Shown one piece after another: positions 1 to 32,700 of a DNA stretch of 36,821 bases (its first letter is position 1; every line of letters starts with the position of its first letter). The translations under genes were made by a program, and so were the position numbers. The DNA is from Klebsiella planticola ATCC 33531 (GTDB lineage: Bacteria > Pseudomonadota > Gammaproteobacteria > Enterobacterales > Enterobacteriaceae): contig NZ_JMPP01000040.1 of assembly GCF_000735435.1 (NCBI RefSeq), forward strand, positions 1 through 36,821, given 5' to 3'. The notes below the pieces were generated by a model. That model worked only from the letters and a program-made list of their open reading frames with translations, searched no databases and was not told the origin of the DNA.

Positions 1-782
1 GCGGCGGGGCGTGGATGGACGTCTTCGTTGAACAATCCACGCTGCTCGCGCAGCATCCGGTGATTTACAACGTTTGCAATTACCAGAAACCGAAGGCCGG
101 CCACAGCGCGCTGCTCTCCTGGGATGAGGTCATCACCTTATTCCATGAATTTGGTCACGCGCTGCACGGGCTGTTTGCCAGTCAGCGTTATGCCAGTCTG
201 TCGGGGACCAATACGCCGCGTGATTTTGTCGAGTTTCCGTCGCAGATCTATGAGCACTGGGCCAGTCAACCGCAGGTGTTCGCCCACTATGCGCGCCATT
301 ATCAGACCGGGGAAGCGATGCCGGATACGCTGCGTGAACGTATGTTACGCGCGGCGAAGTTTAATAAGGGCTATGACATGAGCGAGCTGCTGGCGGCGGC
401 GCTGTTGGATATGCACTGGCATAGCCTCTCGTCGGCAGATATTCCGCGTGATGTCGATAGCTTCGAAGCGCTGGCGTTGCGTCAGGAGCAGATGGACCTC
501 GCCGCGGTGCCGCCGCGCTACCGTAGCAGCTACTTCTCACATATTTTTGGCGGCGGCTATGCCGCGGGCTATTACGCCTACCTGTGGACCCAGATGCTGG
601 CGGACGACGGTTACCAGTGGTTCGTTGAGCACGGCGGCCTGACCCGCGAAAACGGTCAACGCTTCCGCGAGGCGATTTTATCTCGCGGCAATAGTACTGA
701 TTTAGCAGAACTTTATCGCCAGTGGCGCGGGCATGATCCACAGATTGAGCCGATGCTGGAAAACCGCGGGCTGAGTGAGTAG
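1..782 (+). CDS. dcp: Dipeptidyl carboxypeptidase Dcp, 3' part (5' end outside window)
   Basis: This is the C-terminal part of a zinc dipeptidyl carboxypeptidase of the M3 family, which removes C-terminal dipeptides from oligopeptides. The frame is open from base 3 and reads GGAW before the first internal Met, so the start lies upstream of the window. The zinc motif HEFGHALH (HExxH) is visible, followed by SGTNTPRDFVEFPSQ, which carries the downstream metal-ligand Glu region, and by the conserved PPRYRSSYFSHIFGGGYAAG block near the C-terminus. It matches E. coli Dcp closely as I recall it. A GC-rich hairpin with a T-run follows the stop codon, so the gene appears to end its own transcription unit. 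Confidence 0.95.
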   Translation, partial: GGAWMDVFVEQSTLLAQHPVIYNVCNYQKPKAGHSALLSWDEVITLFHEFGHALHGLFASQRYASLSGTNTPRDFVEFPSQIYEHWASQPQVFAHYARHYQTGEAMPDTLRERMLRAAKFNKGYDMSELLAAALLDMHWHSLSSADIPRDVDSFEALALRQEQMDLAAVPPRYRSSYFSHIFGGGYAAGYYAYLWTQMLADDGYQWFVEHGGLTRENGQRFREAILSRGNSTDLAELYRQWRGHDPQIEPMLENRGLSE

Positions 783-804
783 AGCAACTTTGTGTCGGAA
801 ACAG

Positions 805-828
805 AACCGGGCCCGGTGCCCGGTTTTA
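805..828 (+). terminator. Intrinsic terminator of dcp
   Basis: An 8-bp stem, AACCGGGC (805-812) with GCCCGGTT (818-825), encloses a 5-nt loop. Together with the following bases it gives a short T-run, 23 nt after the dcp stop codon. Confidence 0.8.
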
Positions 829-941
829 TTTATCAGTTTTTCCTTCCCCAAAATCTCTGCTGAATGTCGGCGGCGGCGGTAAAATGTTGTCAGGAGGGGG
901 ATAGCTTCACACGCCAGAGACAATGACACTTTCTCTCTCCA

Positions 942-1184
942 TCAGTCCTCTACCATCCACATATCAGCCTCCTCAAACATCTCCTGCACAGCACGGCTGA
1001 TTTGTTCTTTTTCGTGCTTGCTGGCATCGGTGTTAATTGCCGGTAAGGTCATCATCGGCTTTACACGCACATCGGCATCGGGAAATATACGGTGAATTCG
1101 CTTCGATAATTCAGCTGCAATCGTCTCTTTCGCACCGGGCAGTCCCTCAAAGTTCCGCTTGTCATAAATCAGTTCCACAAACAT
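942..1184 (-). CDS. DinI-like (MsgA-type) SOS-regulated small protein
   Basis: An 80-residue acidic protein of the DinI family. DinI proteins bind and stabilise RecA filaments and modulate LexA and UmuD cleavage. The family pattern is visible: an N-terminal beta strand (MFVELIYDKRN), a helix with ELSKRIHRIFPDADVRVKP, and the acidic C-terminal helix EQISRAVQEMFEEADMWMVED, whose length matches DinI. The N-terminus resembles Salmonella MsgA more than E. coli DinI, from memory. A purine-rich ribosome site (GAGGGA) precedes the ATG. An almost ideal LexA box lies about 37 nt upstream, which supports SOS control independently of the protein match. It is monocistronic by position. Confidence 0.85.
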   Translation of the reverse strand: MFVELIYDKRNFEGLPGAKETIAAELSKRIHRIFPDADVRVKPMMTLPAINTDASKHEKEQISRAVQEMFEEADMWMVED

Positions 1185-1220
1185 ATTTCATCCCTCTGCG
1201 TTAATTGTTGACGATATTTT

Positions 1221-1240
1221 TACTGTGGTTGCATACAGTA
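1221..1240 (-). promoter_or_regulatory. LexA (SOS) box upstream of the dinI-like gene
   Basis: The 20-bp site has the form TACTGT-N8-ACAGTA, a perfect match to the CTGT-N8-ACAG core plus the flanking TA on both sides. The site is symmetric, so direction is assigned from the adjacent dinI-like gene, whose start is 37 nt away. Confidence 0.9.
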
Positions 1241-1567
1241 TCAAGTTGAGTGGACGCCGTGAAGGTCAATCGTGCGATGCCGCGATTGTTTCTCGTGCGC
1301 CGCTCGCGAAACCGTCAAACAGTTCACCAGCAAAAGACCCGATGTTTAAACGTATCCCGATGTCTGCAAAGAAAATCGCCCGGCTTTTCTCTTTCCAACC
1401 TGCAGACCTCTTCCGGCGTTGTCCTCAGTGACGCCCTGCGCCCGGAACGGCGTTGTTAAACAGGTAAATATTAACTCTTTGTAATTAATATTTTTTTTGC
1501 TGTTTATTTGCCTCCGCTTAGACGAGAATATCCTCCCCGATAATGAAATGGCTGAAAAGGATCCGCT
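1241..1567. other. 327-bp intergenic region
   Basis: Two short overlapping reading frames near 1225-1459 lack ribosome sites and look incidental. The last 120 bases are AT-rich, with a T-run near 1490-1498, and presumably hold the promoter of the following small gene. No RNA gene or repeat was recognised. Confidence 0.4.
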
Positions 1568-1798
1568 ATGTTAGAAAAATACTTTCAATTTGATGGTGAT
1601 AGTGGCGACGCGGCTATCGAGAAACATAAACGTTTGCTCGCAGTTCAGGCAGCATTAGAAATTTCAAAAGCCGCCGTCTCTTCATCAACCGCAAATTCCG
1701 GTATTCGTAGCCAGATGGATTTACGTAATGTGGCTCAGGAAGTCGCTTCCTTAGCCGATGCCATTCAGGATGCTCTCGAAGGTTACGAGGAAAACTAA
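1568..1798 (+). CDS. Small conserved protein of unknown function (76 aa)
   Basis: I do not recognise this protein by name. It is 76 residues, soluble, with no signal peptide or membrane segment, and is probably all-helical. An N-terminal MLEKYFQFDGDSGDAA segment is followed by an amphipathic alanine-rich helix (about residues 20-40) and an acidic C-terminal helix with LADAIQDALEGYEEN. A good ribosome site (AAAAGGA) lies 6 nt before the ATG, and a strong intrinsic terminator follows the stop, so the gene looks real and monocistronic. The AT-rich upstream region could hold a promoter. No function is inferred. Confidence 0.7.
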   Translation: MLEKYFQFDGDSGDAAIEKHKRLLAVQAALEISKAAVSSSTANSGIRSQMDLRNVAQEVASLADAIQDALEGYEEN

Positions 1799-1828
1799 TC
1801 CTCCATCGCTGCGCTGTCTCCACGTCAG

Positions 1829-1852
1829 GCCTCGCGTTTGCGAGGCTTTTTT
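1829..1852 (+). terminator. Intrinsic terminator
   Basis: A 7-bp stem GCCTCGC/GCGAGGC with a GTTT loop is followed by six T residues. It ends the 76-aa gene. Confidence 0.9.
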
Positions 1853-1906
1853 ACGTCCGGGAGGCATTGTCCGGGGAGTTCCTGTTCGAGACCGCCCGCG
1901 GCGCGG

Positions 1907-2782
1907 CTAGGGTCTGTTCTCGTCTGCGGACCAGTGCCTGATCAGCGTTGCGCCGATGGCCGCAATCTGTTTATTGCGTTCATCCATTGTGGCGGGGGTC
2001 CCGGTCAAATAAATCACCACGATGCGCGCAGCTTTACCGTCCGGACCGAGAGCAGCGATGATCCCGCGCGAGCCGCGATTGCCGGCTCCGGTCTTATCGG
2101 CAATAAACCAGCCCGCCGGCAGCACCGATCGCAACAGCGGCCCCGCAACTTTGTCCTCTACCATCCAGCGTTGCAACTGCTGCTGCGAGGCGCTGGAAAG
2201 CACGCGGCCGGTCAACAGATTTCGCAGTGTCCTGGCCATCGCTTGCGGAGTCGTGGTATCTCGCACGTCGCCCGGCCGCGCTTCATTGAGTTCCGTTTCC
2301 CAACGGTCAAGCCGCGAAGTCTGGTCGCCGCTGTGGCGCAGGAAGCTGGTCAGCCCCTGCGGGCCGCCGAGAGTGGTCAACAGCAGGTTTGCCGCCGTAT
2401 TATCGCTCAGGGTAATGGCGGCAGCGCACAGTTCGCCCACGGTGAGCCCATCGGTAAGATGCTTTTCCGTCACCGGCGAATATTCCACCAGATCCTGCTG
2501 CCGGTAATGGATACGGCGATCGAGCTGTTCTTCACCGGCATCGACACGCGACAAGACTGCGCCGCAGAGCAGAACTTTAAAAGTGCTCATCATCGGGAAC
2601 CGTTCGTCAGAACGATAGCCGGCCAGCAGTTGCCCGGAAGCTAAATCCAGTTCGGCGTAGCCGACCCGGCCCTGAAGCTGGCTTTCGGCTTGTTTAACCG
2701 TCGTCACCGTAGCTTGATGCGCCCAACCGGGGAGCGCCAGGGCGGCTAACAATGGGAGAAGGGCGAATCGATATTGACGCAT
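1907..2782 (-). CDS. bla: Class A beta-lactamase intermediate between TEM and SHV
   Basis: A 291-residue periplasmic serine beta-lactamase that hydrolyses penicillins. The Met beginning [21 protein letters not shown] starts a classic signal peptide; the frame is open 25 codons further but that extension is not signal-like. All class A motifs are present in Ambler numbering: S70-T-F-K73 (MMSTFK), S130-D-N132, E166 with N170 in RWETELN, and K234-T-G236. G238 and an unsubstituted R164 predict no extended spectrum. T182 is SHV-like, while residues 104-105 (EY) and the stretch [12 protein letters not shown] are TEM-like. By eye, against reference sequences recalled from memory, the mature domain is roughly 75% identical to TEM-1 and 72% to SHV-1. 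It carries a short C-terminal extension (SADENRP) after the usual HW. Position beside lacY and the RecF-like ATPase matches the chromosomal blaSHV locus. Confidence 0.93.
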
Positions 2783-3020
2783 AGCGGAATGGTTCCCTGG
2801 GGTTGTGGTACACAAGTCGATCTGGCGGGTTTTGTGGACGTCACGGAAAATAAACAAAAAAATAAAGACAAATAAGAGTTATGAAGATTCACAATTTCTC
2901 TTTTTTCCTTCATCATCTGCCAGCTTTTACCAGTAATAATCAATGCTTAGCTCAGTATATGAAAGAGTTTTTTTCATTCGGGCTGGTATGAACTATAAGA
3001 ATGTACTGAAGGTTGTGTAA

Positions 3021-3338
3021 ATGCTCTACGCCGTCGGCGATCACATATTAACCATTGATCCATCCGGGAGGAACATGGTGGACCCGCTAATCAAGGTCAT
3101 GCTGGTGGGGGGAAAGGCGGATGGCCTGTTGGTCAGCGTCGCCGGCACGGCGACGGAACTGTCCGTCACCGCCGCGCAGTATGGCGCGAAATCTGGCAAT
3201 CCGCTGAGCTATCGGATTGTTTCGCAAACGATCGATGACGAACGTTATTTTTTCGGCGTGTTTAGCGAAACCCATGACGATGCCGACAAGCTCAAACGCG
3301 TGGCCCTGACCCGAGGCATGAAAAAGTCTCTCCGCTGA
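3021..3338 (+). CDS. Hypothetical protein (105 aa) upstream of RecF-like ATPase
   Basis: I do not recognise this protein. It is 105 residues with no signal peptide or membrane helix. The sequence suggests small beta strands (YAVGDHILTI, ADGLLVSVAGTATELSVTA) followed by a basic C-terminal helix ending ALTRGMKKSLR. The start is uncertain: the ATG at 3021 has only a modest AAGG 8 nt upstream, whereas the in-frame Met/Val pair at 3075-3080 follows a much stronger GGGAGGA at 3066-3072. The shorter form would be 86-87 residues. It is divergent from bla and lies 101 nt upstream of the ATPase on the same strand, so co-transcription is possible. A hairpin sits between the two genes. Confidence 0.6.
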   Translation: MLYAVGDHILTIDPSGRNMVDPLIKVMLVGGKADGLLVSVAGTATELSVTAAQYGAKSGNPLSYRIVSQTIDDERYFFGVFSETHDDADKLKRVALTRGMKKSLR

Positions 3339-3348
3339 GTGCGTCCTT

Positions 3349-3373
3349 GCCGGACGATTGACCTTCGTCCGGC
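3349..3373. repeat. Inverted repeat between the 105-aa gene and the ATPase
   Basis: GCCGGACG (3349-3356) pairs perfectly with CGTCCGGC (3366-3373) across a 9-nt loop. No T-run follows, so it is more likely an mRNA hairpin than a terminator. Confidence 0.55.
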
Positions 3374-3439
3374 CTGACCGTGTTATCATTCCCCTTGTTT
3401 ACCACTGCCGCAGCGCGGAGTTTTTTCATCGGGAGCACC

Positions 3440-4540
3440 ATGATTCACCATATCCGCATACAAAATTTCAGATCGGTCAGGGATATCGAGCTGGAACTGG
3501 GCGCGCTCAACATCGTGTTTGGGCCGAATGGCTGCGGCAAGTCCAACATTTACAAAGCCATTCACCTGTTAACCGCCTCCGCGGACGGCAAGTTCTCAAG
3601 CTATATCAGTGAGGAGGGCGGCCTGGAAAATGTGATGTGGTCAGGGCGAACGGCAGCGACGGCGCGCCACCCGCGTCGGCTGCAAATTTCCTGTCTGACC
3701 GCCGAGTTTGACTACGAGCTCCAGGTGGGTTTCCCGGAAAAGCTGCCTTATCCCACCCAGTTTATGCTCGACCCGATTGTCAAAGAGGAGTCCATCTGGC
3801 TGGCGGGATTCTCCCGGCGACCATCCGCCAGGGTTTTGCAGCGCAAAAACCAGGCCGCGTTCCTGCTCGATGTCAACGGCGAGAAAAATACCTTCACCGA
3901 CACGATTTATGAAAACGAGTCGATCTTTGGCCAGTTGGGCGAGCCGCACCGCTTCCCGGAAGTTTCTCGCGTTCGGGAAACTATGCGCCAGTGGCGCTTC
4001 TACCACGAATTTAACATCAGCCGACATTCGGCGCTGCGGCATCCGACGGTAGGTTACCGTTCACCGGTCCTCGACAGCGACGGGCATAATCTTGCCGCCG
4101 CTTTTCAGACGATTGTCGAAATTGGCGCCGAAGAGTTGCTGCACGAGATTCTGGCCGCCGCTTTTCCGGAGTGCGCGTTCTTCTGCGAAAACGAAAACTC
4201 GCGTTTCTCGATTAAGATGCGGCGCAACGGCGTGTTTCGCCCGCTGCTGGCGGCGGAAATGTCTGACGGCACGCTGCGTTTTTTATGTCTGGCGGTAGCG
4301 CTGTTGAGCCCGCGCCCGCCGGCATTCCTGGCAATTAACGAACCGGAAAACAGCCTGCATCGGCAGATGTTCCCGGCGCTGGCCCGGCTGATTGTCGAGG
4401 CCTCCCGCTATAGCCAAATCTGGTTGACCAGCCACTCTGCCGAGCTGGCGGCGCTTATCTCCTCACAGGCCGAGAGCCGGATATACGAGCTGGAAAACAG
4501 CGACGGCGAGACGCGAATCAAAGCCGCAGCGGCCGGATAA
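3440..4540 (+). CDS. RecF-like AAA/ABC-type ATPase
   Basis: A 366-residue cytosolic ATPase of the SMC/RecF (AAA_21-type) superfamily; its substrate is unknown. The start chosen is the ATG at 3440 after GGGAG, because MIHHIRIQNFRSVRDIELELG is the canonical N-terminal strand of this fold. Walker A is GPNGCGKS (residues 28-35). A degenerate ABC signature (EMSDGTLRFLCLA), a Walker B (AFLAINEPENSLH) and an H-loop-like LTSHSAELA follow in order. The coiled-coil arms are very short, unlike SMC or SbcC. No nuclease, TOPRIM or reverse transcriptase partner lies next to it, so assignment to a defence system is not supported. Homologues labelled recF sit beside blaSHV in K. pneumoniae, as I recall. Confidence 0.85.
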   Translation: MIHHIRIQNFRSVRDIELELGALNIVFGPNGCGKSNIYKAIHLLTASADGKFSSYISEEGGLENVMWSGRTAATARHPRRLQISCLTAEFDYELQVGFPEKLPYPTQFMLDPIVKEESIWLAGFSRRPSARVLQRKNQAAFLLDVNGEKNTFTDTIYENESIFGQLGEPHRFPEVSRVRETMRQWRFYHEFNISRHSALRHPTVGYRSPVLDSDGHNLAAAFQTIVEIGAEELLHEILAAAFPECAFFCENENSRFSIKMRRNGVFRPLLAAEMSDGTLRFLCLAVALLSPRPPAFLAINEPENSLHRQMFPALARLIVEASRYSQIWLTSHSAELAALISSQAESRIYELENSDGETRIKAAAAG

Positions 4541-4542
4541 TG

Positions 4543-4577
4543 TTCGCGGCCCGTCTTACGCAACGGGCCGCGAATTT
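4543..4577. terminator. Bidirectional hairpin between ATPase and lacY
   Basis: A perfect 12-bp inverted repeat, TTCGCGGCCCGT (4543-4554) with ACGGGCCGCGAA (4563-4574), fills the gap between the two convergent genes. Only three T residues follow on the plus strand, so termination strength is uncertain. Confidence 0.7.
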
Positions 4578-4582
4578 GCGGT

Positions 4583-5848
4583 TTACGCGGCGTTGTTATA
4601 GCCGGCGGTCGGCAGCAGCGTTTTACTGCCTTTCAAGGTGAACAGCGAGATAACGGTAAAGCCCAGGGTAATCGAACCCAGAATCAGATAAGCCTGATGG
4701 AAGCCGACGGTGTCGTACATGCGGCCAACCCATGCCGACAGCACGACGCCAGAGAGCTGCTTCGATAAGTTAAAACCGATCAGGAACAGGGTGGCGGACA
4801 GTTTCGGGTTAAATGCTGAGGAAATATATTTAAAGGTGCCGACCAGCAGGAACGGAACTTCAAACATATGCAGCATTTTTAAGATAACCACCTCGACCGC
4901 CGTCGTGGCGAATGAAGATCCGAGAATACGTACGGACATAATCATCCCGGCGGTTAGCAGCGCATTTTTCGCCCCGATACGGTTCACAATAGCCGGGGCG
5001 CAGAACATGATCAGCGCATTCAGCAATTCGCCGCCGGTGGTGACGAAGCCAAAGACTTCGGTTCCGCGCCGCGGGTCGGCAAAAAAGCCTTTAAAAAAAT
5101 TGGCAAACTGCTGGTCAAATACGTCATAGACGCTGGCAACGCCGACCACATAGATAATAAATCCCCAGAATCGCGGCATTCGCAGCAGCTCGGCGGCGAC
5201 GCGCAGAGAAAACGCCTGACGGTTTGCGCCTAAGGCATCCATAACCTGGGCGCTGTTGCTGCTTTCCGGACGGGAGAACCACAGCAGCACCCCGAGCACC
5301 AGTGCAAAGCCGGAGGCGATCCAGAAGGTGATATTGGGATCAATGCCAAACAAGATGCCGGTGATTGAGGCGCAGAGCGCCCAGCCGACACAGCCAGCAA
5401 CGCGGACCTTGCCGTATTCGAAACGGTTGGCGCGACTGACTCGCTCGATATAGGCTTCGACCGCGCCGGAACCGCTGGAGAAGACAATGCCCAGATAGAG
5501 TCCACCTACCAGCGCCCCGGCGATAATATTGACCTGCAACAGCGGTGAGAAGACAAATATAAAGAACGGGGCAAACAGAATTAATAAGATGGTGATGGTC
5601 CACAGCAGGTGTTTACGCAGCCCTAGCTTATCGGATATCAAGCCAAATATCGGTTGGCAAATAATGGCGAACAGCGAAATAGCAGAGAAGACAACCCCGG
5701 TTTCCGTTTTAGTTAAATGGTTTACGTCCGCCAGCCATACCGGGAAAAACGGGAAGTAGGCCGACATAATGAAGTAGTAAAAGAAAAAGAACAGCAGGAA
5801 ATAAATAAAATTATGCCGTTCGCGTGGCGCCAGTTCAGAGAATTTCAT
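4583..5848 (-). CDS. lacY: Lactose permease LacY (lactose/H+ symporter)
   Basis: A 421-residue inner-membrane MFS permease that imports lactose with a proton. Twelve hydrophobic helices can be followed. Residues essential in E. coli LacY are retained: the sugar-binding Glu (E131 here, in AVEAY, equal to E126) and Arg (R149, in KVRVAGC, equal to R144), the Glu of TTGGELLNA (E269), the Arg of MSVRILGSS (R302), and the His/Glu pair of LHMFEVPF (H322, E325). The motif DKLGLRK between helices 2 and 3 is intact. It is transcribed after lacZ, but 184 bases separate the genes, far more than in E. coli, and the gap holds a terminator and a repeat-like element. No lacA follows. Confidence 0.96.
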
Positions 5849-5867
5849 AGAGATGTTCCAGTGTTAT

Positions 5868-5996
5868 TATACTCGTCATCATTCCAGCTGCCTGATCCTG
5901 GCGGCACGCTGTTCCCTTGGTGATACTCGCCATCCCTGGGCTTCGGCCCGAATTCTGCCCATTTCCGCCACGGTGCATCCCGAATATGCGGGTATA
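5868..5996. repeat. Repeat-like ~129-bp element with imperfect terminal inverted repeats in the lacZ-lacY spacer
   Basis: The spacer segment begins TATACTCGTCAT and ends with bases whose reverse complement reads TATACCCGCATA, so the ends form imperfect terminal inverted repeats. Internal dyads such as GGGCTTCGGCCC are present and there is no reading frame. The terminal TATACTCGTCAT resembles the ends of short palindromic intergenic repeats of other Enterobacterales, from recall. A single copy is visible here, so repeat status is an inference. Confidence 0.5.
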
Positions 5997-6000
5997 GCCG

Positions 6001-6023
6001 TTTTAAAGGGGGCGAGAGCCCCC
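6001..6023 (-). terminator. Intrinsic terminator immediately after lacZ
   Basis: On the minus strand a perfect 6-bp GC stem GGGGGC/GCCCCC with a TCTC loop is followed by TTTAAAA, 9 nt past the lacZ stop codon. It lies inside the lacZY unit and should reduce read-through to lacY. Confidence 0.75.
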
Positions 6024-6032
6024 GTTGAGGGT

Positions 6033-9225
<3,193 letters not shown>

Positions 9226-9322: not shown

Positions 9323-9361
9323 GGCGTATTCAGACTGATTTTGCACAGAGAGGGGGGGATT

Positions 9362-10426
9362 ATGCAGCGGCGTTCGGCAACCTTAGATGATGTGGCACAC
9401 GAGGCCGGCGTTTCGCAACAAACGGTCTCCCGGGTACTGAATCGTCCCGATGTGGTCTCCGCGCGAACTCGCGAGAAAGTGATCCGCGCGATGCAGGCGC
9501 TGCATTATGTTCCCAACCGATCGGCGCAGCTGCTGGCGGGGAAAGCGGCACCTTCAATCGGGCTGATTACGGCGTCGCTGACGCTGCACGCGCCATCACA
9601 AATCGCGTCGGCGGTGAAAAGCCATGCCGGGGCTCATCAGCTGGAAGTGTCCATCGCCATGCCCGAACGCAGCGATTACGCTTCACTTCAGACCCGGCTG
9701 GATGAGTTTCGCGCTCAGCATATTCGCGGCGCGATTATCAGCCTGCCGCTGGAGAGCAGCATCGCGGAACGGCTGGTGCAGGAAAACCCCGATATCGCCT
9801 GTCTGTTTCTTGATGTGTCACCGGAGACGGAAGTCTCCTGCGTGCGTTTTGATCATCGTGATGGCTGCGGCGCCTGCGTGCGGCATCTCTGGGAGCTCGG
9901 CCATCGCGATTTTGGCCTGCTGGCCGGTCCGGAAAGCTCGGTCTCTGCCCGGTTGCGCCTCGGTAGCTGGCGGGAGACATTGCATCGCCTGGGCGTGAGC
10001 CAGGCCGTGACGGTATTTGGCGACTGGAGCGCCGCCAGCGGCTGGCAGAAAACCTTTGAACTGCTCCACCTGCAGCCACGGATCAGCGCCATCGTTGTGG
10101 CTAATGACCAGATGGCATTAGGGGTACTCAGCGCGCTGGCGCAGCTTAATCGTACCGGCAACAGTGCCGTTTCGGTCACCGGCTATGACGATACGGCGGA
10201 CAGTCTTTACTTTCAGCCGCCGCTGACGACCGTGGCGCAAAACTTCGATCTGCTTGGTAAACGGGCGGTGGAGCTGCTGACCCAGCAGATGGCGGCGCCG
10301 CAGGTGCCGATCCGCGAACTGCTCCCCACCCGATTGATCGTCCGCCAGTCAACCTGGCCTCGTGAGGGGGAATATTCCCGCGATCCGCTGATTGCGCAGC
10401 TCAAAGCGCTGGTGGATAAACTGTAA
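9362..10426 (+). CDS. lacI: Lac repressor LacI
   Basis: A 354-residue LacI-family repressor divergent from lacZ. The ATG at 9362 is chosen because a G-rich ribosome site ends just before it and the conserved helix-turn-helix (TLDDVAHEAGVSQQTVSRVLN) follows at once. The hinge/core junction AAPSIGLITASLTLHAPSQI, the inducer-binding Arg in SSVSARLRLGSW (R197 in E. coli) and the Asp in TGYDDTADS (D274) are conserved, so allolactose or galactoside binding is expected. The recognition helix has QQ where E. coli has YQ (position 17), alongside a G-to-T change in the operator half-site. The C-terminal leucine heptads (LIAQLKALVDKL) are short but could still form tetramers. Confidence 0.93.
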   Translation: MQRRSATLDDVAHEAGVSQQTVSRVLNRPDVVSARTREKVIRAMQALHYVPNRSAQLLAGKAAPSIGLITASLTLHAPSQIASAVKSHAGAHQLEVSIAMPERSDYASLQTRLDEFRAQHIRGAIISLPLESSIAERLVQENPDIACLFLDVSPETEVSCVRFDHRDGCGACVRHLWELGHRDFGLLAGPESSVSARLRLGSWRETLHRLGVSQAVTVFGDWSAASGWQKTFELLHLQPRISAIVVANDQMALGVLSALAQLNRTGNSAVSVTGYDDTADSLYFQPPLTTVAQNFDLLGKRAVELLTQQMAAPQVPIRELLPTRLIVRQSTWPREGEYSRDPLIAQLKALVDKL

Positions 10427-16499: not shown

Positions 16500-17012
16500 A
16501 TGTTTAAGCGTCGCACTCTCAAAACTGCACTTGCGGCGGTTATATCGCTTGTCGTTGTTGCTGCACCGGTTTATGCAAACCCAGGAAATGGAAATGGCGG
16601 TGGGCATGGCAATGGGGGGAGTAACCACGGGAACAGCGGCAATCATGGCAACAGCGCAGACCATAGCAACAAAGGCCAGGGGAATGGGAAGTCTGGTGAG
16701 GATCATGGCAACCGCAAGAACTACGGAAAACCAGACCACGTTGACTCCGATATCAGCTTCTCGCGGGCGCGCTCCCTGGCAGTCAATTATGGTCTGGTGG
16801 GTTATAAGGCGCTCCCCCCGGGTATCGCGAAGAATTTAGTCCGCGGCAAACCGTTGCCTCCGGGGATTGCGAAGAAAACGCTCCCGGCATCCATGATTAA
16901 CGATTTACCGTATTATCCAGGATATGAATGGCGTGCGGTTGGCGATGATTTGGTGCTGGTCGCATTAAGTACGGCAATCGTGACATCAATTATTAATGGT
17001 GTTTTTGACTAA
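16500..17012 (+). CDS. CigR-like exported protein with Gly/Asn/His-rich region
   Basis: A 170-residue protein matching Salmonella CigR, an anti-virulence inner-membrane protein, as I recall. A signal peptide covers residues 1-26 (ending APVYA). Residues 27-75 are a low-complexity stretch of Gly-Asn and His-Gly-Asn repeats. The conserved C-terminal half has ARSLAVNYGLVGYKALPPGI and KPLPPGIAKKTLPASM, two LPPGIAK repeats typical of RcnB/CigR proteins, then a hydrophobic end LVLVALSTAIVTSIINGVF. AAGGA lies 9 nt before the ATG. It is monocistronic, ending in a strong terminator. Its role in an organism without a Salmonella-type SPI-3 island is unknown. Confidence 0.8.
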   Translation: MFKRRTLKTALAAVISLVVVAAPVYANPGNGNGGGHGNGGSNHGNSGNHGNSADHSNKGQGNGKSGEDHGNRKNYGKPDHVDSDISFSRARSLAVNYGLVGYKALPPGIAKNLVRGKPLPPGIAKKTLPASMINDLPYYPGYEWRAVGDDLVLVALSTAIVTSIINGVFD

Positions 17013-22222: not shown

Positions 22223-23140
22223 ATGAAGCGCAACCTGAATGACCTTCTTTATTTTGTCACCGTTGCCCGCGAAGGGAGCTTTACCCGAGCGGCGGCGCAT
22301 CTCGGCGTGACGCAACCCGCACTCAGTCAGGCGATTTCCGCACTCGAGGAGCGCATGCAAATTCGTCTCCTCACCCGAACTACCCGCAGCGTGTCGCCAA
22401 CCGCGGCCGGAGAGCGGCTGCTGCAGGCCATCGGCAACCGTTTTGATGAAATTGAAGCTGAACTGGATATGCTCACGGAACTGCGTGACAAACCTGCCGG
22501 TACGGTACGAATCACCTGCGGGCCGGATGTATTACGTACCACTTTATTACCCAAACTGACGCCGCTTCTGCGTGAATACCCGGATATTCATATTGAGTTC
22601 GATGCTAATCACGGTTTCCGCGATATCGTTGCCGACCGTTTTGACGCGGGAGTGCGTCTGGGCGACACCATTGATAAGGATATGATTGCGATACCGATTG
22701 GCCCGGAATTACGCATGGCGGCCGTGGCGTCGCCGGCGTATTTTTCACGCTACCCGATTCCGCAAACTCCACATGAACTGACGCAACATTGCTGTATAAA
22801 CCAGAGAATGGTCAAATCCGGGGGACTGTATGTCTGGGATTTTGATCAGGAAGGTGGTGATTTGAACGTTCGGGTGAGCGGGCAGGTGACGTTCAACACA
22901 TCAGAACATATTGTCACCGCCGCCCTGGCCGGATTAGGCATCGCATTTTTACCTGAGGAAGAGTTTGGTGCGCATATTGAAGAAGGTCGGTTGATCCGGG
23001 TGCTGGAAACCTGGTGTCAGCCTTTCCCTGGCTACTATCTGTATTACCCCAGCCGAAAACAAGTTTCTCCCGCATTTTCACTGGTGGTCGATGCTCTGCG
23101 TGTTTACCGTATGCGCCAGCCCGTAGACAAGAACAGGTAA
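22223..23140 (+). CDS. LysR-family transcriptional regulator
   Basis: A 305-residue LysR-type regulator. The winged helix is at residues 5-65 (LLYFVTVAREGSFTRAAAHL, then GVTQPALSQAISALEERM) and the effector domain follows from about residue 92 (GTVRITCGPDVLRTTLLPKL). It belongs to the large AaeR/DsdC-like group that represses or activates adjacent efflux genes. It is divergent from the MFS-hydrolase operon, and a perfect palindrome lies in the shared region, so this operon is its likely target. The ribosome site is not strong. Effector unknown. Confidence 0.92.
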   Translation: MKRNLNDLLYFVTVAREGSFTRAAAHLGVTQPALSQAISALEERMQIRLLTRTTRSVSPTAAGERLLQAIGNRFDEIEAELDMLTELRDKPAGTVRITCGPDVLRTTLLPKLTPLLREYPDIHIEFDANHGFRDIVADRFDAGVRLGDTIDKDMIAIPIGPELRMAAVASPAYFSRYPIPQTPHELTQHCCINQRMVKSGGLYVWDFDQEGGDLNVRVSGQVTFNTSEHIVTAALAGLGIAFLPEEEFGAHIEEGRLIRVLETWCQPFPGYYLYYPSRKQVSPAFSLVVDALRVYRMRQPVDKNR

Positions 23141-28652: not shown

Positions 28653-29924
28653 ATGCAGCGTCGAACATTATTAAAAGCTTTCGCACTCTCCGCCTCTACC
28701 GTTCTCATGGGCTACTCTTTCCAGGTTTATGCCGCCGACACCATTAAAGTCGGGATTATGCATTCGCTCTCCGGGACCATGGCGATTTCTGAAACCCCGT
28801 TGAAAGACGTGGCGCTGATGGCGATTGACGACATTAACGCTAAAGGCGGCGTGCTGGGGAAAAAGCTCGAGCCGGTGGTTGTCGATCCCGCGTCAAACTG
28901 GCCGCTGTTCGCGGAAAAAGCCCGTCAGCTGCTAACCCAGGACAAGGTGGCGGCGGTCTTTGGCTGCTGGACATCGGTCTCGCGAAAATCGGTTCTGCCG
29001 GTTTTTGAAGAGCTGAACGGCCTGCTGTTCTATCCGGTACAGTACGAAGGCGAAGAGATGTCGCCAAACGTCTTCTATACCGGCGCGGCGCCGAATCAGC
29101 AGGCGATCCCGGCGGTGGAATACCTGCTGAGTGAAGATGGCGGCGGGGCGAAACGCTTCTTCCTGCTGGGCACCGATTACGTCTATCCGCGGACCACCAA
29201 CAAAATTCTGCGCGCCTTCCTGCATGCAAAAGGGATCCAGGATAAGGACATCGAAGAGGTCTATACCCCGTTCGGTTACAGCGATTACCAGACCATCGTG
29301 GCCAACATTAAGAAATTCTCCGCCGGCGGTAAAACGGCGGTGGTTTCTACCATCAACGGCGACTCCAACGTCCCGTTTTATAAAGAGCTGGCCAACCAGG
29401 GTCTGAAGGCCACCGATGTGCCGGTGGTGGCCTTCTCGGTCGGTGAAGAGGAGCTGCGCGGTATTGATACCAAACCGCTGGTGGGGAACCTGGCGGCGTG
29501 GAACTACTTTGAGTCGGTCGATAATCCGACCAACAAACAGTTCGTGGCGGATTACCGTGCCTATGCCAAAGCCCACAAGTTGCCAAACGCCGACACCGTG
29601 GTGACTAACGATCCGATGGAAGCCACCTGGGTTGGGCTGCACATGTGGGCCCAGGCGGTAACCAAGGCGGGGACCACCGATGTCGATAAGGTGCGGGCAG
29701 CGATGGCCGGCCAGACCTTCAACGCCCCTTCGGGCTTCACTCTGACCATGGACGCGACTAATCACCATCTGCACAAACCGGTGATGATTGGCGAAATCGA
29801 AAGCAACGGGCAGTTCAACGTCGTCTGGCAGACCGATAAGCCGGTGCGCGCCCAGCCGTGGAGCCCGTGGATCGCGGGCAACGATAAGAAACCCGATCAT
29901 CCAATAAAAACTGCCGCGAATTAA
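28653..29924 (+). CDS. urtA: Urea ABC transporter substrate-binding protein UrtA
   Basis: A 423-residue periplasmic urea receptor. A signal peptide (about residues 1-27) with twin Arg in MQRRTLLKAFALSAST suggests Tat or Sec export. The mature protein is a two-lobed periplasmic-binding fold related to AmiC and LivJ: KVGIMHSLSGTMAISETPLK, then GCWTSVSRKSVLPVFEE and LFYPVQYEGEEMSPNVFY, all hallmarks of UrtA. GGAG lies before the ATG. It heads the urtABCDE operon, behind a sigma-54 promoter; a structured 137-nt spacer follows before urtB. Confidence 0.95.
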   Translation: MQRRTLLKAFALSASTVLMGYSFQVYAADTIKVGIMHSLSGTMAISETPLKDVALMAIDDINAKGGVLGKKLEPVVVDPASNWPLFAEKARQLLTQDKVAAVFGCWTSVSRKSVLPVFEELNGLLFYPVQYEGEEMSPNVFYTGAAPNQQAIPAVEYLLSEDGGGAKRFFLLGTDYVYPRTTNKILRAFLHAKGIQDKDIEEVYTPFGYSDYQTIVANIKKFSAGGKTAVVSTINGDSNVPFYKELANQGLKATDVPVVAFSVGEEELRGIDTKPLVGNLAAWNYFESVDNPTNKQFVADYRAYAKAHKLPNADTVVTNDPMEATWVGLHMWAQAVTKAGTTDVDKVRAAMAGQTFNAPSGFTLTMDATNHHLHKPVMIGEIESNGQFNVVWQTDKPVRAQPWSPWIAGNDKKPDHPIKTAAN

Positions 29925-29934
29925 GCGCCTCTCT

Positions 29935-29999
29935 CCCGGGTGCGCATGCGTTGCCCGGGCGACATAAGTCGCCCCGGTAAGCGCCAGCGCCACCGGGGA
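29935..29999. repeat. REP-like/BIME-like hairpin cluster in the urtA-urtB spacer
   Basis: Three adjacent dyads: CCCGGG (29935-29940) with CCCGGG (29954-29959), GGGCGAC-ATAA-GTCGCCC (29957-29974), and CCCCGGT (29972-29978) with ACCGGGG (29992-29998). The last has the GGTAAGCGCCAGCGCCACCGG core typical of Klebsiella REP repeats, given here in two parts: GGTAAGCGCC and AGCGCCACCGG. It probably stabilises urtA mRNA relative to the permease genes. Confidence 0.7.
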
Positions 30000-30061
30000 T
30001 ATCCCGGAATCCCGCGCGACCCTCGTTAGCGTTAACGGGGAAATGACACAAGGAGATACTC

Positions 30062-31627
30062 ATGAGCACATGGCGCATAGTGGGGTATTACCTCGCGCTA
30101 CTGGTGATGATCGTGCCGTGGCGGGCGCAGGCAGCGGACGCGGATGATTTTGTGGCGGCCAACCGCACCCAACAGGCGCGCCTGCTGGAACAGTGGGCTG
30201 CCGCGCCGGACGCCCAGCGACTGCCGCTGCTGCGGGCGCTGAAAGCGGAAACCCTGGTGGCGGATGACAGTGGCCACGCCTTCAGCCAGCAGCAGGCGCT
30301 GGGAGCCGCGCACTCTCCACAAGGGGTGACAAAACCGGTTCGCCTCACCAACCGCCTGCGTAACCTGGTCGCCGGGGCATTGGCCACCCATCTGCTTGTC
30401 AGTGACAGTGTCACGGAAAGAGCGGCCGCCGTCAGAACGCTACAGCGGGAGGCTACGCCGGAAATGGCGGGGCTGTTGCAACAACGGTTGGCGGTTGAAA
30501 CCGATGAGGGCGTGAAAACGCAGCTGGACATTGCGCTGGCCCGTCTGCAGCTTGCCAGCCCGGACAGCGCCAGACGGCTGGCTGCCGTTGAGCAGCTCGG
30601 CCACTCGGTGGATCCGGATACCCAGGCGCTGCTGATTCCCTATACCGATCTTCAGCATGAGCCTGACGCCCGCGTGCGCGCTGCGGCGGCAAACAGCCTG
30701 AGTCAGATTAAACAGCGTCTGCTGCTCGGCGATATTCTCGGCCAGGCGTTTATGGGGCTGTCGCTGGGGTCGGTTCTGCTGCTGGCGGCGCTGGGGCTGG
30801 CCATCACCTACGGGTTGCTGGGCGTCATCAATATGGCGCACGGCGAGATGCTGATGATTGGCGCCTATAGCTGCTGGTTGGTCCAGCAGGCGCTGGCCCA
30901 GCTGGCGCCGCAGTGGCTGGCTTTTTATCCGCTGGTCGCGCTGCCGGTCGCCTTCCTGATAACCGGCGGCATCGGCATGGCGCTGGAACGCACTATCATT
31001 CGTCATCTCTATGGTCGCCCGCTGGAGACGCTGCTGGCTACCTGGGGGATTAGCCTGATGCTGATCCAACTGGTGCGCATGCTGTTCGGCGCCCAGAACC
31101 TGGAAGTGGCCAACCCGGCCTGGCTCTCCGGCGGTCTGCAGGTTTTGCCGAACCTGATCCTGCCGTGGAACCGCCTGGCGGTGCTGGGCTTTGTGCTGCT
31201 GGTGCTGTTCTTCACCTGGTTAATTCTCAATAAAACCCGCTTAGGCATGAACGTACGGGCGGTGACGCAGAACCGGGCGATGGCGGCCTGCTGCGGCGTG
31301 CCGACCGGGCGCGTGGATATGCTGGCGTTTGGTCTCGGTTCGGGTATCGCCGGGCTGGGTGGGGTGGCGCTGTCGCAGCTGGGTAACGTCGGCCCGGAGC
31401 TGGGACAAGGTTATATCATCGACTCCTTCCTGGTGGTGGTGCTCGGCGGCGTCGGCCAGCTGGCGGGGAGCGTGGTGGCCGCCTTGGGCCTCGGCATCTT
31501 CAACAAAATCCTTGAACCTCAGCTCGGGGCGGTGTTGGGCAAGATCCTGATCCTGGTGCTGATCATCCTGTTTATTCAGAAACGTCCGCAGGGGCTGTTT
31601 GCCTTAAAAGGGAGGGTTATTGACTGA
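30062..31627 (+). CDS. urtB: Urea ABC transporter permease UrtB
   Basis: A 521-residue inner-membrane permease. It has a signal-like first segment, then a long extracytoplasmic helical region (about residues 27-225) with repeat-like ATEMAGLLQQRL-type segments, followed by a LivH-type permease domain (FMGLSLGSVLLLAALGLAIT, then GLLGVINMAHGEMLMIGAYS) with about eight helices. The long N-terminal part is normal for proteobacterial UrtB. AAGGAG lies before the ATG. It overlaps urtC by one base in ATGA form, so they are translationally coupled. Confidence 0.94.
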   Translation: MSTWRIVGYYLALLVMIVPWRAQAADADDFVAANRTQQARLLEQWAAAPDAQRLPLLRALKAETLVADDSGHAFSQQQALGAAHSPQGVTKPVRLTNRLRNLVAGALATHLLVSDSVTERAAAVRTLQREATPEMAGLLQQRLAVETDEGVKTQLDIALARLQLASPDSARRLAAVEQLGHSVDPDTQALLIPYTDLQHEPDARVRAAAANSLSQIKQRLLLGDILGQAFMGLSLGSVLLLAALGLAITYGLLGVINMAHGEMLMIGAYSCWLVQQALAQLAPQWLAFYPLVALPVAFLITGGIGMALERTIIRHLYGRPLETLLATWGISLMLIQLVRMLFGAQNLEVANPAWLSGGLQVLPNLILPWNRLAVLGFVLLVLFFTWLILNKTRLGMNVRAVTQNRAMAACCGVPTGRVDMLAFGLGSGIAGLGGVALSQLGNVGPELGQGYIIDSFLVVVLGGVGQLAGSVVAALGLGIFNKILEPQLGAVLGKILILVLIILFIQKRPQGLFALKGRVID

Positions 31628-32700
31628 TGAGCCAACCAATTACCTTAACATTAGCGCGTAAGGCGCCGCGGCCGCTGCAATGGCTCGGCGTGCTCCTGGT
31701 GCTGGGGTTGCTGAGTATGCCGTTTCTGGCGCTGCTGCCGCAATCGCATCCGCTGGCGGTCTCCACCTGGCTGCTGACCCTGAGCGGTAAAATCCTCTGT
31801 TACGCCATTGTCGCCGTTGCGTTGGATCTGGTCTGGGGCTACGCCGGTATGCTGTCGCTGGGCCACGGCATCTTTTTCGCCCTCGGCGGCTATGCGATGG
31901 GGATGTATCTGATGCGCCAGGCGGCGGGCGACGGTCTGCCGGCATTCATGTCTTTTCTGTCGTGGAGCGAGCTGCCGTGGTTCTGGTGGGGAACGCAGCA
32001 CTTTGCCTGGGCGATGCTGCTGGTGGTGCTGGTTCCGGGGCTGCTGGCGCTAGTCTTCGGCTGGTTTGCTTTCCGCTCTAAAATCAAAGGTGTCTACTTC
32101 TCGATTATGACCCAGGCGTTGACCTACGCCGGCATGCTGCTCTTTTTCCGTAACGAAACCGGTTTTGGCGGCAACAACGGTTTTACCGGATTCACCACGC
32201 TGCTTGGCTATTCCGTTACCGCGACCACCACGCGGGCAGCGCTATTTATGGTCACGGTTTTACTGCTGCTGCTGACGTTAGGGATCGGTTATCTGCTGGC
32301 GCAGAGTAAATTCGGCCGGATCCTGACGGCGGTGCGTGATGCGGAAAACCGGCTGATGTTCTGCGGATACGATCCGCGCGGATTTAAGCTGCTGGTGTGG
32401 ACGCTGTCGGCGGTGCTGTGTGGCCTGGCAGGCGCACTGTACGTGCCTCAGGTGGGCATTATTAACCCCAGCGAAATGTCGCCGACCAACTCCATTGAAG
32501 CGGCTATTTGGGTGGCGCTGGGTGGACGCGGCACCTTAATTGGTCCGGTTCTTGGCGCCGGGCTGGTGAACGGGGCGAAGAGCCTGTTCACCGTCACGAT
32601 GCCGGAGTACTGGCAGCTGTTCCTTGGTCTGATTTTTATCATTGTGACCCTGTTTTTACCTCGCGGGGTTATTGGCCTGCTACGCAAAGGAGACCGCTAA
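31627..32700 (+). CDS. urtC: Urea ABC transporter permease UrtC
   Basis: A 357-residue LivM-type permease with ten or so hydrophobic helices. The conserved permease motifs are GYAGMLSLGHGIFFALGGYA and TGFGGNNGFTGF, and the EAA-like loop AVRDAENRLMFCGYDPRGFK faces the ATPases. ATG at 31627 overlaps the urtB stop (TGATG), and its own stop overlaps the urtD start (TAATG). It forms the heterodimeric channel with UrtB. Confidence 0.95.
   Translation: MSQPITLTLARKAPRPLQWLGVLLVLGLLSMPFLALLPQSHPLAVSTWLLTLSGKILCYAIVAVALDLVWGYAGMLSLGHGIFFALGGYAMGMYLMRQAAGDGLPAFMSFLSWSELPWFWWGTQHFAWAMLLVVLVPGLLALVFGWFAFRSKIKGVYFSIMTQALTYAGMLLFFRNETGFGGNNGFTGFTTLLGYSVTATTTRAALFMVTVLLLLLTLGIGYLLAQSKFGRILTAVRDAENRLMFCGYDPRGFKLLVWTLSAVLCGLAGALYVPQVGIINPSEMSPTNSIEAAIWVALGGRGTLIGPVLGAGLVNGAKSLFTVTMPEYWQLFLGLIFIIVTLFLPRGVIGLLRKGDR

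Follow-up and report, generated by a model that had tools for sequence, protein, structure and literature searches.

The window analysed here, a stretch of 36,821 nucleotides from Klebsiella planticola ATCC 33531 (contig NZ_JMPP01000040.1), carries on its minus strand, at positions 1907 to 2782, a class A beta-lactamase gene that matches the NCBIfam model blaPLA. The reading frame starts with ATG and runs through 291 amino acids with zero internal stops; its product is recognised by the Pfam families Beta-lactamase2 (146.8 bits) and Beta-lactamase (114.1 bits), and is the single match to this protein in its own genome. Alignment with TEM, which also supplies the ABL numbering, places a predicted signal peptide at residues 1-21 (2720..2782, minus strand), so that the mature enzyme would begin at H22 (H26 in ABL numbering). 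On the same strand lie the codons of the SxxK nucleophile Ser70 (residue 66, 2585..2587), of Ser130 in the SDN motif (residue 126, 2405..2407), of the omega-loop deacylation base Glu166 (residue 162, 2297..2299) and of Lys234 in the KTG motif (residue 230, 2093..2095). S70, K73, S130-D131-N132, R164, E166 and N170 are all kept in this alignment, as are K234-T235-G236, R244 and the C77/C123 pair. The original prediction, made from the letters alone, had every class A motif intact, which agrees with the presence of all catalytic residues that we checked, and its identities counted by eye, about 75% to TEM and 72% to SHV, come out at 196/261 (75.1%) and 189/261 (72.4%) over the mature part. Residue 240 is Asn in the query and in the displayed ORN and TER rows, Glu in TEM, SHV and RUB, and Ala in the GIL enzyme of Citrobacter gillenii.

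In class A enzymes, the active-site serine is acylated by the beta-lactam and Glu166 assists deacylation. Since the catalytic residues are intact, the protein would be expected to follow the same route: exported to the periplasm, it would have its Ser70 acylated by the beta-lactam, and Glu166 together with water would release the product. No beta-lactamase regulator gene is present among the named neighbours of bla, the nearest LysR-family gene that we found lying 19 kb away (22223-23140), and low constitutive expression, giving intrinsic penicillin resistance, may therefore be supposed. Upstream of bla, two predicted promoter-like matches face the gene (3021-2992 and 3019-2992, minus strand), among 6 such sites against 2.9 expected on both strands of positions 1-4600; the second hexamer that they share consists of letters also kept in genomes without bla.

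The gene is embedded in a conserved neighbourhood. Its outer flank is formed by the C-terminal part of an M3 peptidase (15..782, plus strand, Pfam Peptidase_M3), presumably dcp-like, and a 76-residue ORF without a Pfam family (1568..1798, plus) adjoins the 3' end of bla; copies of this ORF, 88-100% identical, lie by bla in genomes G003, G007, G009 and G015 of the genus. On the other side follow a stretch common to bla-bearing and bla-less genomes of the genus (2869..3000, found in 18 of 20), which meets the bla segment at its left edge, a small conserved ORF of 105 residues, divergent from bla and without a Pfam family (3021..3338, plus), and an AAA ATPase with a RecF/SMC-like N terminus (3440..4540, plus, Pfam AAA_21/AAA_15), which is syntenic in the compared stretches L001, L002, L003, L008 and L040. 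Beyond it lie lacY (4583..5848, minus, Pfam LacY_symp at 688 bits), lacZ (6033..9146, minus, Pfam) and a lacI-family repressor (9341..10426, plus, Pfam). The lacY gene and the RecF-like ATPase are thus where the original prediction had put them, beside bla, and its further statement that this is the setting of chromosomal blaSHV was correct: in K. pneumoniae (L040) the part from bla to lacI is kept, with blaSHV in the place of bla and the same neighbours beside it. The full order of peptidase, 76-residue ORF, bla, 105-residue ORF, AAA ATPase, lacY, lacZ and lacI recurs in Raoultella ornithinolytica NBRC 105727 (L001); it is partial in other compared stretches, L002 being without the peptidase, L003 and L008 without the 76-residue ORF and L006 without the AAA gene. 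Against L119, from genome G009, the window is colinear, with 11,577 aligned bases at 94.2%. The gene is chromosomal, and its locus is as in other Raoultella.

Further features of the window were recorded in passing. A DinI-family ORF (942-1184, minus, Pfam DinI at 76.1 bits) is preceded by a perfect palindrome, TACTGT-N8-ACAGTA (1221-1240), unique in the window, 36 bases upstream, which we take to be a LexA-like motif; this suggests an SOS-induced gene near bla. Farther along the plus strand are a CigR-family protein (16500-17012, NCBIfam T3SS_CigR_fam, 206.4 bits with a cut-off of 78) and urtA, urtB and urtC of a urea ABC transporter (28653-32700), each above its NCBIfam cut-off.

A mobile-element boundary at the locus, it had been proposed, would argue against vertical inheritance; no transposase or integrase came up among 26 window proteins compared with Pfam or NCBIfam. 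Megablast gave no match in 72,556 plasmid records, a set that may omit records of the window's own genome or of one very near it, and in the best 5000 plasmid records, with the same reservation, the best place is at 60-80% identity. In 5426 E. coli genomes, with the same possible omission, positions 1-5000 have a sole match, 396 bases of lacY at 79.8%, which lies on plasmids in 4 of the genomes. The G+C content of the bla stretch (0.54-0.61) is in line with that of its flanks (0.46-0.65).

To which family the enzyme belongs was assessed with the curated NCBIfam models. The query passes blaPLA (NF038398) with 683.6 bits for a cut-off of 670 and the umbrella model for PLA/ORN/TER with 654.3 for 550, and falls below the cut-offs of blaORN (647 for 670), blaTER (532.9 for 620), blaTEM (467.3 for 625), SHV (462.4 for 640) and SHV_LEN_OKP (478.8 for 535). 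We calibrated the PLA and ORN models on nine relatives. The R. ornithinolytica protein of L001 passes ORN (685.2) and misses PLA (647.8), P0005 passes ORN (683.1), and P0002, which represents a cluster of 105 sequences and differs from the query at 3 residues, passes PLA (680.8). The umbrella model accepts all nine, and six pass neither of the two narrower ones, among them P0003, just under both cut-offs (PLA 664.4, ORN 665.6), and P0006 (646.7 and 637.9); the border between PLA and ORN is narrow, as these six fit neither model. The query and L001 share 274 of 291 residues (94.2%), with 17 substitutions between them, and the published identity of PLA-1 to ORN-1 is given as 94% (PMC8365188). 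With L001, which passes the ORN model, as the ORN reference, the query thus has both the 291-residue length and the roughly 94% identity to ORN-1 that go with PLA. For the proposed criterion of more than about 95% identity to a named PLA enzyme, the cut-off of the curated model served as stand-in.

For the phylogeny we used a tree of 53 rows (LG+C20, 6 of them outgroup rows), chosen by us as the query, 29 of 80 loci and 23 of 167 proteins, the latter coming from two protein searches (best 120 of 5476 and best 120 of 7435). The query lies inside a starred clade of 13 PLA/ORN/TER rows (99/99). Because the curated model cut-off, the tree and the synteny all agree, we regard the protein as almost certainly the class A penicillinase native to the organism's chromosome, a member of the PLA family of the Raoultella planticola type. 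The possibility raised at the outset, of a described Raoultella enzyme of PLA, ORN or TER type, is therefore realised as PLA. In published descriptions, PLA-1 has penicillinase activity that is inhibited by clavulanate (PMC8365188), and a sequenced R. planticola carries blaPLA2a on the chromosome (PMC8907287).

The original prediction had also described the enzyme as one whose segments alternate between TEM-like and SHV-like, which raises the question of a mosaic formed by recombination between genes of these two kinds. TEM and SHV differ at 83 sites; of these, 29 are TEM-like and 22 SHV-like in the query, and the remaining 32 match neither. Yet the two classes of sites do not cluster: they form 23 runs against 26.0 expected (P = 0.24, 20,000 shuffles), and the longest run is 5 (P = 0.84). 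At 27 of the 29 sites the TEM-like state is also that of the majority of 27 other lineages, and at all 29 it is present in at least one of them; the SHV-like states are the majority at 11 of 22 and present in at least one of the 27 at 20 of 22. T182, which had been counted as SHV-like, occurs in 8 of the 9 displayed rows, with TEM as the sole exception. The best solved-structure match of the query is ENCA (3zdj), which we take to be a reconstructed enterobacterial ancestor; it has the query's residue at 20 of the 29 TEM-like and 18 of the 22 SHV-like sites. Given the non-significant runs test and states that are common to other lineages, we rejected recombination as an explanation and consider it extremely improbable; the alternation does not stand as a mosaic. 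On the aligned rows, the TEM-like and SHV-like residues are apparently mostly states common to the enterobacterial lineages of the group, and point neither to recombination nor to TEM ancestry. The appearance of lying between TEM and SHV thus requires no special history.

A second proposal was that the gene represents a chromosomal lineage that branches at the base of TEM or as its sister and would be informative about the source of TEM, for which no chromosomal source is named in the titles or abstract openings of the papers listed (the word TEM is absent from the main text of PMC7782503). We examined it with the 53-row tree, forced-clade tests and a protein search seeded with TEM. The mature-part identity is higher to TEM (75.1%) than to SHV (72.4%), the deep branch order among the enterobacterial lineages has no resolution in the tree, and a forced clade of PLA and TEM that includes the chromosomal-looking kin L005 and P0040 has a p-AU of 0.091, above 0.05. 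Against this, TEM sits with L005, P0040, P0134 and P0074 in a starred clade of five rows (100/97) with PLA outside, and the forced union of PLA with the TEM core, without L005 and P0040, has a p-AU of 0.048. Dickeya solani (80.1%), Gibbsiella (79.3%) and Citrobacter gillenii (78.5%) are all nearer to TEM than the query is, and the closest natural rows among those compared are P0074 (88.9%), P0134 (83.5%), L005 (82.4%) and P0040 (81.2%). For comparison, a forced clade of SHV and TEM has a p-AU of 0.105. The data thus lean against a union of PLA and TEM, with tests that are not decisive (0.091 in the widest form). We rejected a TEM origin as the best reading in view of the separate clades and the disfavoured widest union, and consider it highly unlikely; at 75.1%, against 81.2-88.9% for TEM's clade mates, the gene does not appear to be informative about where TEM came from. 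A phylogeny combined with synteny had been suggested as the check on this idea: the Klebsiella/Raoultella synteny is real, but the position with TEM is not found, the two falling in separate starred clades.

Several observations concern TEM itself. Its nearest natural relatives among the compared rows are L005, P0040, P0134 and P0074, at 81-89%; the gene of L005 (labelled Serratia marcescens, 7992-8855), found in 1 of the 5 genomes of its genus set, adjoins what by eye appear to be urea ABC transporter genes. Genes with 73% identity to the query, the same value as for TEM, make up part of loci L014-L038 and occur on short contigs from unrelated organisms such as Actinacidiphila and Streptomyces (L028-L030), Thermotogota (L032) and Nitrospira (L038). 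Since L017 and L022 also bear short lacZ and LacI-like pieces, this suggests cloning-vector contamination of the assemblies. In L115 (genome G005, 1748-8704), a TEM gene at 5626-6486 (665.1 bits for a cut-off of 625) has, by eye, sulfonamide and aminoglycoside resistance genes and transposases as neighbours, an acquired contrast to the PLA locus.

To place the PLA locus within the genus, we examined it in all of a set of 20 genomes. Nine carry bla there (G000, G003, G007, G009, G012, G014, G015, G018 and G019), and it is missing in the other 11. In G001 and G002, the peptidase gene is followed by 135 and 99 bases, respectively, and then by the conserved stretch and the 105-residue ORF; in G004, G005, G008, G010, G011, G016 and G017 the peptidase and the 105-residue ORF are about 2.5-14 kb apart, with no bla of this family in between; and in G006 and G013 the compared stretch has no 105-residue ORF and the whole genome no good AAA match. 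Some class A match exists in 17 of the 20 genomes, in seven of them at 41-42%, presumably OXY-like; the matches also include a TEM gene elsewhere in G005 and, in G013, one at 69% on a different contig. A homologue of 2869-3000 precedes the 105-residue ORF in all 18 genomes having that ORF (89 to 132 bases matched), and in the nine genomes that carry bla, the gene begins 69-89 bases to the left of this stretch in the same orientation (for G018 the computed distance is 144, because its match picks up at residue 22 and so 63 bases late). In G001 and the window the homology has its left edge at the sequence ACAAATAAGA, and in G012 this edge is about 10 bases nearer bla. PLA/ORN/TER and SHV thereby have one junction in common, give or take about 10 bases, and lie in the same orientation. 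As separate observations, a start (MNYK...) lies inside the conserved stretch upstream of the 105-residue ORF (2988-3020, plus), the frame stopping after 10 codons in the window and running longer in seven bla-less genomes (L113, L114, L118, L120, L121, L126 and L127), where by eye it would give a small secreted-looking protein; and L117 (G007) keeps bla, the 105-residue ORF and lacY with no AAA ATPase match at E <= 0.001 genome-wide.

A 2023 study proposed that ORN-1/PLA-1 came into the ancestor of Raoultella from outside, probably through horizontal transfer (PMC10484340). The place of PLA by lacY would then not reflect shared ancestry with blaSHV, and some of our results accord with this: G001 and G002 present a site without bla, a forced clade of PLA and RUB is not rejected (p-AU 0.455), and the genomes with bla do not form a single clade when flanking genes are used for the tree (p-AU 2.2e-5). 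This tree, quickly made and midpoint-rooted, uses genes of the same neighbourhood, and for G006, G012, G013, G015 and G019 fewer than half of its columns are filled; counted on its 18 genomes other than G006 and G013, two changes are needed, and the distribution is explained equally well by two gains and by ancestral presence followed by two losses. It is less easily reconciled with acquisition that the PLA/ORN/TER and SHV junctions coincide within about 10 bases in the same orientation, that a forced clade of PLA and SHV has a likelihood 0.85 lnL above the free tree (p-AU 0.558), and that 295 genomes of the family, 25 of which have a match at E <= 1e-90, hold no match above 76% outside the genus. 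Because junction and orientation are shared and the bla tree tolerates PLA together with SHV, the evidence speaks for a locus that was inherited and then lost in places, rather than for the published acquisition, which we regard as possible but rather doubtful. We think it fairly probable that PLA/ORN/TER and SHV/LEN/OKP are one orthologous locus, present at a fixed junction in the ancestor of Klebsiella and Raoultella and lost at least twice, namely in the lineage of G001 and G002 and in that of G004, G005, G008, G010, G011, G016 and G017. If true, this would contradict the acquisition view for ORN-1/PLA-1 (PMC10484340). Among the papers listed on blaSHV, lacY, recF and Raoultella, none is shown to mention a shared locus. 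The evolutionary point is a small one, and the junction provides an easy way to find out whether the class A enzymes of Klebsiella and Raoultella were inherited jointly.

The gene is almost certainly an ordinary, already described intrinsic penicillinase, PLA; it would confer intrinsic resistance, and it is neither recently acquired nor, as it appears, ancestral to TEM. Compared at the level of the family, it passes the curated PLA cut-off and has the 291 residues and chromosomal Raoultella synteny of that family, with no difference found. With ORN of R. ornithinolytica (NF038401), it shares the length of 291 residues, the locus and N240, but differs from L001 by the 17 substitutions and misses the ORN cut-off. 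TER of R. terrigena (NF038400) belongs to the same clade, occupies the same locus and likewise has N240, but is identical at only 213 of 260 positions of the mature part, and its model has a length of 284 against 291. The SHV/LEN/OKP enzymes of the K. pneumoniae complex are class A penicillinases at the same junction and in the same orientation beside the AAA gene and lacY, from which the query departs by its 72.4% mature-part identity to SHV and by N240 in place of E240. TEM, finally, resembles the query in 75.1% of the mature part and in all catalytic residues, but has P167, M182, S235, E240 and T265 where the query has T167, T182, T235, N240 and L265, belongs to a different clade, and is present on thousands of plasmid records.
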